Shown one piece after another: positions 5,892 to 52,835 of a stretch of DNA of 64,000 nt. The stretch spans positions 186,001 to 250,000 of the forward strand of contig JAJCZU010000008.1 in the NCBI GenBank assembly GCA_029262235.1, given 5' to 3'. The notes beneath the pieces are model-generated. The model did not search any database and was not told the origin of the DNA. It saw only the letters and a list, made by a program, of their open reading frames with translations. The DNA is from Candidatus Eiseniibacteriota bacterium. GTDB taxonomy: Bacteria; Orphanbacterota; Orphanbacteria; Orphanbacterales; Orphanbacteraceae. The first letter of the stretch is position 1, and each line of letters begins with the position of its first letter. Both the position numbers and the translations under genes were made by a program.

Positions 5892-7229
5892 TCACGAACG
5901 AATCCTGCACTCCTCGATCTTGCGGTAAAGCGACGAAACCCCGACACCGAGCAAACGCGCGGCCTGCTTCTTGTCGCCGCGCGCCAGTCCGAGCATCTTC
6001 TGGATGTGCTGCCCTTCGAACAGGCGCACGGCCTCACGCAGAGTCGTAATCTCCCCGTGCTCTTTCGTGAGCGCCGGCGGCAGACACGCGTGCGAAATCA
6101 CGTTGCTGTCGCAGAGGATCATCGAACGCTCGATGACGTTCTCGAGCTCGCGAATCCCCCCCGGCCACTGATAGCTCATGAGGCTGTGCATCGTTTCCGG
6201 TTCGACGCCGGACACCTTGCGCCGAAGCTCGCGATTGTACTTCTCGATAAAGTGGTCGACCAGAAGCGGAATGTCTTCCACCCGCTCGGCAAGACCGGGC
6301 AGCCTTACTTCGACCACGTTCAGGCGATAGAAGAGATCGTCCCGAAACGCGCCGCGTTTCACCTCGCTCAACAGATTCCGATTCGTCGACGCGATAATGC
6401 GCGTATTGATCGGAATCGCCTTGTTCTCGCCGACGGGAATGATCTCGTGCGACTCGAGCGCGCGCAGCAGCTTCGCCTGGAGCGCCAGCGGCATGTCACC
6501 GATTTCGTCGAGCAGGAGCGTGCCTTCGCTGGCGTAGTTGAAAAACCCCTGCTTGTTCTCGACCGCGCCGGTAAACGCACCCTTTCGATGGCCGAACAGT
6601 TCGCTCTCCATCAGCGATTCAGCGATTGCGGCGCAGTTGACGGCAACGAACGGTTTCGATCGGCGTCCCGAATTGTAGTGGATCGCGCGCGCGATCAGTT
6701 CCTTCCCGGTACCGCTCGGTCCCGTGATCAGCACGGTGCTGTCGGTGCGCGCCACGCGCCGCACCATCTCGAGCACTTTCCTCATCGCTTCGCTTTCGCC
6801 GACGATCTTGCGAAAGTCGTAGCGCTGCGTCATCTCCTGCTCGCGCTGCAGGCTTTCGTGTGCAAGCGAGCGATGTTCGAGCATGCGCTTCAGGCGGGCG
6901 GAAACCGCCGACAGGTCGAGCGGTTTGCGAACGTAGTCGTCGGCCCCTCGTTGCATGACCTCGACCGCGCTTTCCAGCGTGCCGTGTTCGGTCATGATCA
7001 TGACGCCCGTGAGCGGCGCCGCTTTCTGAATGTGATCGAGCAGTTCGAGGCAGCCACGCCCGGGCGACATCAGGTCGGTGATCACGACGTCGACATGCGC
7101 CTGATCGATCTGTGCCTTTGCGCCGGCAACGTCGACGGCCGATTTGACGGCGAAGCCTTCGCCCTCGAGCTGCCCTTTGAGCCCCTCGATCACGCCCGGG
7201 TCGGGATCGACGACAAGAATCGTGGCCAT
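5892..7229 (-). CDS. NtrC-family sigma-54-dependent response regulator
   Basis: 445 residues, the usual length of the family. The receiver domain (residues 1-118) has phospho-acceptor Asp52 (ITDLMSP) and conserved Lys102 (RKP). The AAA+ domain has Walker A GPSGTGKE (170-177), the sigma-54 contact loop GAFTGA (217-222) and Walker B LLLDEIGD (238-245). A Fis-type helix-turn-helix lies at about 400-440. It activates sigma-54 promoters when phosphorylated. No histidine kinase gene is next to it. The start is supported by AAGGAG upstream of the ATG. It is divergent from the MerR-sulfur operon, whose upstream region has a -24/-12-like element, so that operon is its likely target (inference). Confidence 0.95.
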
Positions 7230-50944: not shown

Positions 50945-51221
50945 TTCCGTAAACTATGGTGCATGCAGTCAAAATATGACAACTCCTGTAGACAGTTCAC
51001 GCCTTTTGCCCGCCTCCTGGGTTGACGCTCGAAGCGATTCATTTTGAAAGAGTTAGGGCAATTGCCGGGGATTCGGTCACCACTTGCTAACTTTGGTTGT
51101 CAGTTCAATCTTGATATGGAAGCGGCCTCTCGCTCTCATGCCGACATCCAATCCACGTTAAATACAACAAATCCATGTCGTTGTCCGTAAAAATTCTTTT
51201 ATTCCTTTGTGACTGCAATGC

Positions 51222-51237
51222 TGGCACAACCGTTGCA
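51222..51237 (+). promoter_or_regulatory. Consensus sigma-54 promoter
   Basis: TGGCACAACCGTTGCA. The -24 TGGCAC and -12 TTGCA match the consensus fully, with GG and GC at the correct spacing (GG 51223-51224, GC 51235-51236). The predicted start is near 51248. The nearest downstream protein gene is ispH at 51633, beyond four terminators. Confidence 0.8.
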
Positions 51238-51247
51238 TTAACCAAGT

Positions 51248-51378
51248 GCATGGCCGAACGGGAGACCGGCCTGATCGAATACCTCGGCTTCGCATGTTGT
51301 TGCTTTCCTCAATGGGGGAGCGTGGGGAGGCAGTGACTTCGCCGAGGATTGAGAGGGAGCCTTCGGGCTCCCTTTTTT
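51248..51378 (+). ncRNA. Predicted sigma-54-dependent small RNA (about 131 nt)
   Basis: Runs from the predicted start to the end of the first terminator T run. It holds an arm pair CCTCGGC (51282-51288) and GCCGAGG (51341-51347) enclosing 52 bases, a short GGCCG/CGGCC pair, and the terminator GGGAGCC-TTCG-GGCTCCC-T6. It may instead be the 5' leader of a longer transcript, or encode the peptide at 51250-51336. No expression evidence. Confidence 0.4.
51250..51336 (+). CDS. Possible 28-codon leader peptide with three consecutive Cys codons
   Basis: Reads MAERETGLIEYLGF, then A, then CCC (codons at 51295-51303), then FPQWGSVGRQ and stop. It would begin two bases after the predicted start of transcription, hence leaderless, with no ribosome site. 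A run of identical amino-acid codons before a terminator is the pattern of attenuation leaders, but this could be chance. Confidence 0.2.
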   Translation: MAERETGLIEYLGFACCCFPQWGSVGRQ

Positions 51379-51546
51379 ATTGGTATTCAACCCCCGCGCG
51401 CTCACTTCAGGGAAGCCTTCGGGCTCCCTTTTTTATTGGTATTCAACCCCCGCGCGCTCACTCCAGGGAGCCTGCGGCTCCCTTTTTTATTGGTATTCAA
51501 CCCCCGCGCGCTCACTTCAGGGAAGCCTTCGGGCTCCCTCCCTTTT
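51355..51546 (+). terminator. Four tandem Rho-independent terminators (55-base units)
   Basis: Stems: GGGAGCC-TTCG-GGCTCCC with T6 (51355-51378); GGGA(A)GCC-TTCG-GGCTCCC with T6 (51410-51434); GGGAGCC-TGC-GGCTCCC with T6 (51466-51488); GGGA(A)GCC-TTCG-GGCTCCC with a T5 run (51520-51546). The first three are separated by nearly identical spacers (ATTGGTATTCAACCCCCGCG and CTCACTTC-like). Two loops are UUCG tetraloops closed by C-G. Confidence 0.85.
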
Positions 51547-51632
51547 TCGACCACACCCTTTCCCCTGTCCCGCCCGTCGATTATACTCTGCAGGAATCCC
51601 GGCATGAACCCCGAACGAAGCGAGTCCCTCAC

Positions 51633-52835
51633 TTGACGAGAAGTTTCAGCAAGGCGCCCTCCAAGGAAATCCGCGCTCAGGTAGGTGTCCAGATCGAGAG
51701 CGATTTCAGCTCGCGCCTGGTCGGCTATCTGCGTGAGAACGGGTACCAGCTCGAGGCGGGCGATACCACGATCAAGCTCGCGGCCGAATTCGGGTTCTGC
51801 TATGGGGTCGACCGGGCCATCGAGTATGCGTTCGCGGCCCGCCACCGGTTCCCGAACCGCCGGATCTGGCTCACGGGCGAGATCATTCACAATCCGGGCG
51901 TCAACGAACGCCTTCGCGAAATGAAGATCGATTTCCTGCCGAATACCGACGACAAGAGCGTGCGTTACGCCGACCTCGCGAAGGACGACGTGATCCTGAT
52001 CCCGGCTTTCGGCGCGGACTCCGAGGAGATGACGTACTTCCTGAACGAGGGGTACGAGATCGTCGACACGACGTGCGGGTCCGTACTGAACGTCTGGAAA
52101 CGAGTGCGGAAGTATGCGAACGAAGGCTTCACGGCGCTCGTTCACGGGAAATTCGATCACGAAGAAACGATCGCCACCGTTTCGCAGGTGTGCGCGGAAT
52201 CGCCCGACGGCCACTACCTCGTCGTTCTCGACCTCGAAGAAGCGAGGGAGCTTGCCGCGATGATCGTATCCGGCGACTGGAGTGACTTCGACCGGAAGTT
52301 CCCGGAGCACGCAAGAAGCAAAGGCTTCGACCCGGCCCGCGATTTGATGCGGATCGGCGTCGCGAACCAGACGACCATGCTGGAATCGGAGTCGCGCGAA
52401 ATCGGCGAGATCGTGCGCGCCGCCATCGGCGAACGCTACGGCGCGGGCGAAACGGAATCGCACTTCCTGTCGTTCGACACGATCTGCAGCGCCACGGAGG
52501 ATCGTCAGCGCGCGGTGAAGGAACTTCTCGCGGACGGTGTCGATCGCATGATCGTAATCGGCGGGTACAACAGTTCGAACACGGGCCACCTGCTCGAACT
52601 TTCGAGCGCCGTGATCCCGGCGTATCACATCGTCGACGCCGGCTGCCTGATCACGCCCGAACGCATCGTCGCCAAGCCGAACGGCCGCGAGCCTGTCGAG
52701 ATGACGGGCTGGCTCCCCGAGGGACCGCAGGTGATCGGCGTGACCGGCGGCGCCTCGACGCCCGACTCGATCGTGGGCCTCGTGATCGAACGCATCCTGC
52801 AGCTGCGCGGCGTGCCGCTTCCCTCACTCACCTAG
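51633..52835 (+). CDS. ispH: 4-hydroxy-3-methylbut-2-enyl diphosphate reductase, plant/cyanobacterial-type long form
   Basis: 400 residues from a TTG at 51633; no ATG or GTG fits, and the N-terminal TRSFSKAPSKEIRAQVG extension aligns with the cyanobacterial/plant form. The reading frame continues upstream through the terminator array but that part is not protein-like. Core: DTTIKLAAEFGFCYGVDRA, GEIIHNPGVNERL, VDTTCGSVLNVW, TICSATEDRQRAV, GGYNSSNTGHL. The three Fe-S cysteines are present (FGFC, DTTC, TIC). Catalyses the last step of the MEP isoprenoid pathway with a [4Fe-4S] cluster. The strange start and the leader suggest regulated expression. Confidence 0.92.
   Translation: MTRSFSKAPSKEIRAQVGVQIESDFSSRLVGYLRENGYQLEAGDTTIKLAAEFGFCYGVDRAIEYAFAARHRFPNRRIWLTGEIIHNPGVNERLREMKIDFLPNTDDKSVRYADLAKDDVILIPAFGADSEEMTYFLNEGYEIVDTTCGSVLNVWKRVRKYANEGFTALVHGKFDHEETIATVSQVCAESPDGHYLVVLDLEEARELAAMIVSGDWSDFDRKFPEHARSKGFDPARDLMRIGVANQTTMLESESREIGEIVRAAIGERYGAGETESHFLSFDTICSATEDRQRAVKELLADGVDRMIVIGGYNSSNTGHLLELSSAVIPAYHIVDAGCLITPERIVAKPNGREPVEMTGWLPEGPQVIGVTGGASTPDSIVGLVIERILQLRGVPLPSLT

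Follow-up and report, generated by a model that had tools for sequence, protein, structure and literature searches.

A probable sigma-54-dependent small RNA gene conserved upstream of ispH in an uncultured bacterial phylum

Does the region upstream of ispH in this genome hold a small RNA gene of its own, or do its promoter and hairpins belong to a leader of ispH or to some other structure? The window, by which we mean the whole 64,000-nucleotide stretch of DNA that was analysed, had been given a sequence-only reading that placed here a consensus -24/-12 promoter, pairing arms, a UUCG-loop terminator and hence a 131-nt RNA. The elements of the locus are as follows.

51222–51237, plus strand: sigma-54 promoter TGGCAC-N5-TTGCA (-24/-12), an exact match; rpoN occurs in 7/7 genomes
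51248–51378, plus strand: predicted small RNA of about 131 nt, its start placed from the promoter and its end from the terminator
51251–51272, plus strand: hairpin 1, loop AACGGGAGAC; the closing pair is the sole variable part of stem and loop
51282–51347, plus strand: hairpin 2, a long interrupted stem with the apical loop RUGGGGGAGCG at 51312–51322
51351–51378, plus strand: intrinsic terminator, GGGAGCC-UUCG-GGCUCCC followed by a T-run, with the stem-loop at 51351–51376
51407–51545, plus strand: three more tandem terminator units spaced 54–56 nt apart
51582–51587, plus strand: TATACT, a -10-like element, without a clear -35, of a likely separate ispH promoter
51633–52835, plus strand: ispH (4-hydroxy-3-methylbut-2-enyl diphosphate reductase), adjoining the RNA in 7/7 genomes; its start codon is uncertain

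The claimed promoter is borne out by the letters at 51222–51237, TGGCACAACCGTTGCA, which a pattern scan for TGGCAY-N5-TTGCW returned as the single exact match within the 64-kb window. Twelve nucleotides past the GC of the -12 element lies the predicted start at 51248. Folding of the 131-nt RNA gives -57.9 kcal/mol, more stable than shuffled sequences (z -2.45); its first hairpin reads AGGCCG-AACGGGAGAC-CGGCCU. In the source genome (G000) the terminator array at 51353–51540 consists of four tandem copies with near-identical spacers, and in the sister species G001 there are about six diverged tandem copies. The motif TTATACT was also found 3' of the terminators in G001 and G005, giving three genomes with G000.

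Comparison across the phylum was based upon seven genomes (G000–G006) from five genera, with G001 belonging to the same genus as the source. This phylum, probably GTDB JABDJQ01, has been placed near Eisenbacteria and Latescibacterota (PMC11323493). A DNA search recovered related sequence from each of the other six genomes. The covariance search that had been suggested for 51248–51378 was carried out with a model of the two hairpins alone; it found one copy of the unit per genome in 7/7 phylum genomes and no match in the 379 genomes searched beyond the phylum. Promoter and terminator had been left out of the model and were nonetheless found beside every match. Promoter, hairpins and terminator occur in identical order and spacing in all seven genomes, which places the unit beyond chance. 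In the alignment TGGCAC-N5-TTGC is invariant and lies 13–16 nt 5' of hairpin 1 throughout. The boundaries first proposed for the RNA thus hold up as predictions, with the promoter-to-RNA register and the stems kept across five genera.

Standard pairs account for 99.4% of cells in the proposed helices of the seven-genome alignment. Helices 2 and 3 are paired in 100% of cells and include three pairs with two-sided changes, such changes being seen in helix 3. While the loop RUGGGGGAGCG of hairpin 2 is kept, its stem varies with pairing maintained. The terminator contains seven pairs that stay paired despite two-sided changes in at least one genome. The covariation score was equalled in 1 of 500 shuffles and the count of pairs with two-sided changes in 19 of 500, a signal limited by a sample of only seven genomes from five genera. 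Hairpin 1 hardly varies and so contributes almost no covariation evidence. The lowest-energy single-sequence fold of G002 departs from the consensus.

The sequence-only reading had also held that no protein gene precedes the terminator and that the RNA was unlike any it knew, and both statements agree with our results. No reading frame is conserved among the seven genomes; the distances from block to block differ modulo 3, so that the blocks shift relative to one another and no protein can be conserved, and a coding function was rejected on this ground. At the Rfam gathering threshold the window yielded tRNA only and nothing matching the RNA, and a permissive search found no Rfam family for it. 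A weak whole-length similarity to Atu_C8 (RF02502; 18.5 bits, E 0.23) is most likely chance, since the score is far below the gathering score of 50. An exact-pattern search of genome contigs returned four loci, all apparently from phylum genomes already found. A wider distribution was considered on the basis of a single IMG/VR match (L092) to hairpin 1 and was rejected as chance, the match having neither promoter nor hairpin 2.

Three palindromes of the form GYCAAC-N4-GTTGRC lie at near-constant spacing 145–278 bp 5' of the predicted start.

50978–50993, no strand assigned: palindromic site I, GACAACTCCTGTAGAC, a 10/12 match to GYCAAC-N4-GTTGRC and a candidate enhancer (UAS)
51011–51026, no strand assigned: site II, CGCCTCCTGGGTTGAC, degenerate here with the right half alone kept, 33 bp past site I
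51086–51101, no strand assigned: palindromic site III, GCTAACTTTGGTTGTC, a candidate enhancer centred at about -154 from the predicted start

The position of site I relative to site III is constant within 1 bp in G000, G001, G002, G004, G005 and G006. The spacing is 33 bp between sites I and II in G002, G004, G005 and G006, 76 bp between sites II and III in these four and in G003, and 108 bp between sites I and III in G000 with its degenerate site II. Site II is a clearer palindrome in G003, G004 and G006, and site III is perfect (GCCAAC-N4-GTTGGC) in G002 and G005. The distance from palindromes to promoter is variable, the centre of site III falling between -145 and -169. The strict palindrome GNCAAC-N4-GTTGNC is rare, with zero to four occurrences per genome. 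Judged by its sequence, the array looks like a set of enhancer sites for a bacterial enhancer-binding protein (bEBP).

Which protein might bind there? The regulator at 5892, whose deletion had been suggested as a check, gains no specific support here: the source genome has about 30 bEBP-like genes, of which this is one, and no strong palindrome was found near it. The palindrome has one other recurring place, seen in G002, G003 and G005: it is flanked there by a nucleoside phosphorylase gene on one side and a gene for a small exported protein on the other, and the latter is followed by a gene for a protein of 1034–1043 aa that combines TPR repeats with a sigma-54 activation domain and HTH_8 (TPR-bEBP). 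Given some 27–33 bEBP-like matches per phylum genome, a palindrome beside a bEBP gene is unlikely to arise by chance (perhaps 2%, by estimate). All six TPR-bEBP orthologues read through to the C-terminus share the recognition helix SRWGLHKKL. In four of the seven genomes (G000, G001, G004 and G006) no palindromes accompany the TPR-bEBP gene, which weakens the link. Sigma-54-like sites at the TPR-bEBP locus are weak and unconvincing in view of the strong sigma-70-type promoters there. On this sequence evidence the TPR-bEBP appears a better candidate activator of the RNA than the regulator at 5892.

Upstream of the TPR-bEBP gene, which is divergent from the nucleoside phosphorylase gene, all seven genomes encode a small protein whose N-terminus resembles a signal peptide and whose core, GGGDPDNPVP, is invariant. 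In the source genome this locus lies at G000:C4:1054500-1060000, with the TPR-bEBP gene at G000:C4:1056626-1059709. By its sequence features the pair resembles a peptide signal and its receptor. Genes for equivalent small exported proteins lie immediately 5' of paralogous TPR-bEBP genes; their conserved cores differ from this one and are GDGDIPE at six loci, and further DPDGLEG or DPDGFE, and DTDPDDFPI or a close variant. Scans of four of the small exported proteins against Pfam and NCBIfam found no family, and literature searches returned no paper on exported peptides paired with TPR-sigma54 activators. Together these loci look like a set of paralogues in which each TPR-type sigma-54 activator has an exported peptide as its partner, possibly a class of peptide-signalling systems. 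A circuit in which the secreted peptide bearing GGGDPDNPVP controls the TPR sigma-54 activator, which acts at the palindromes to switch on the RNA, is conceivable, and we regard it as a speculative and rather unlikely proposal. If true, an uncultured phylum would have an RRNPP-type peptide receptor joined to a sigma-54 small-RNA output of the Qrr type.

The regulatory machinery of the seven genomes bears on how such an RNA could work. The rpoN gene (PF04552) was found in 7/7 and CsrA in 4/7, while Hfq (PF17209) was found in none. CsrA was not found in G004 (~100% complete), G006 or G001 (82% complete). These distributions argue against both a CsrA sponge and Qrr-type, Hfq-dependent pairing.

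We conclude that the locus is probably an independent small-RNA gene, switched by sigma-54 and a bEBP, whose product likely acts in trans independently of Hfq. The conserved unit, the promoter register, the paired stems, the enhancer-like array, the presence of rpoN and the failure to detect Hfq support this at the level of sequence. Activation, transcription, action in trans and loop pairing we infer as follows. Sigma-54 polymerase would stand poised at the -24/-12 promoter until a signal leads an enhancer-binding ATPase at the palindromes 145–278 bp upstream to open it. The transcript would begin near 51248, form the two hairpins with their conserved G-rich loops and end at the terminator or terminators, so that ispH would be expressed from its own promoter. 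Most likely independent of Hfq, it would then act in trans through base pairing of the loops GGGAG and GGGGGAG to CU-rich segments of target mRNAs. When the loops were compared with ispH, the peptide gene and the TPR-bEBP gene, pairing to their 5' regions showed no consistent signal; that no conserved target emerged among these few regions counts against this reading.

The main rival to a separate RNA gene is a 5' leader: the sigma-54 promoter would drive ispH, with the terminator serving as a regulated attenuator or riboswitch and the loops sensing a ligand or protein. The RNA does lie upstream of ispH on the same strand in 7/7 genomes, and strongly conserved loops are typical of aptamers. 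Yet this gene order says little, because ispH also keeps its downstream neighbour (6/7 loci, the contig ending there in the seventh). In G000 and G001 the stretch from the RNA to ispH contains four to six tandem terminators, terminator sequences drift freely, and a -10-like element lies 3' of the terminators in three genomes. Base-pair probabilities, whose reach does not extend to ligand-dependent switching, show a terminator mostly paired with itself and no competing anti-terminator. A separate RNA gene is favoured because of the tandem terminators, the -10-like element after them and the self-paired terminator; the constant ispH neighbourhood leaves a role in cis some probability, and we consider the leader improbable.

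Two further explanations carry less weight than the leader. With GGA inside the hairpin loop in both loops, and CsrA in four of the seven genomes, the RNA might be a CsrA sponge of the CsrB/RsmZ type. There are only two GGA sites, however, neither of them within ANGGA, and the loops are intact in G004 and G006, where CsrA was not detected. Loops left unchanged in a lineage without CsrA were seen in one genus. That the complete genome G004 keeps the RNA when CsrA was not found in it led us to reject the sponge, which we hold to be very unlikely. That the hairpins are a structure of the DNA or of an mRNA end and not a regulatory RNA, with the promoter match coincidental, is scarcely credible against a promoter at near-fixed distance in 7/7 genomes, stems that keep pairing through compensatory changes, a terminator closing the unit, and an enhancer-like array upstream.

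Read as an independent gene, the locus would represent a regulatory RNA kept in every phylum genome examined, in a phylum without detected Hfq. Its promoter class implies a dedicated signal, and the enhancer motif singles out one candidate activator among about 30. The RNA offers a concrete entry to post-transcriptional control in an uncultured lineage.

Among known sigma-54 small RNAs, the Qrr RNAs act with Hfq. Like the RNA described here, those of Vibrio, activated through LuxO, are short, have their own terminator and a sigma-54 promoter, and are under upstream control by an enhancer-binding protein (PMC10162802). The RNA here differs in being single copy, in having no match to an Rfam small-RNA family and in occurring in seven genomes where Hfq was not detected. 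CrcZ is larger and sequesters Hfq/Crc. CrcZ and CrcY of Pseudomonas, activated by CbrB, share sigma-54 and bEBP control of a non-coding RNA (PMC8871633) but differ from the present case, in which Hfq was not detected in the genomes carrying the RNA. The presence of rpoN in 7/7 genomes, CsrA in 4/7 and Hfq in 0/7 agrees with an RNA that works without Hfq, as Pxr does.

Pxr of the myxobacteria, likened here by architecture and not by sequence, appears to be the closest architecture found. It has a coding region of about 108 nt with three stem-loops, of which SL1 and SL2 are conserved and SL3 is variable, a predicted sigma-54 promoter and an upstream enhancer region, and it is lineage-specific in a host without Hfq (PMC5684412, PMC5568312). 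The RNA here likewise has three stem-loops, the first two conserved and the third variable. The phyla differ, and so does the setting: Pxr adjoins the sigma-54 regulator gene nla19, whereas the RNA here adjoins ispH (7/7) and a Nudix/MBL-fold gene (four genomes), with no adjacent sigma-54 regulator gene. The RNA is new in sequence, and it is of a kind already known, the sigma-54-dependent small RNA.
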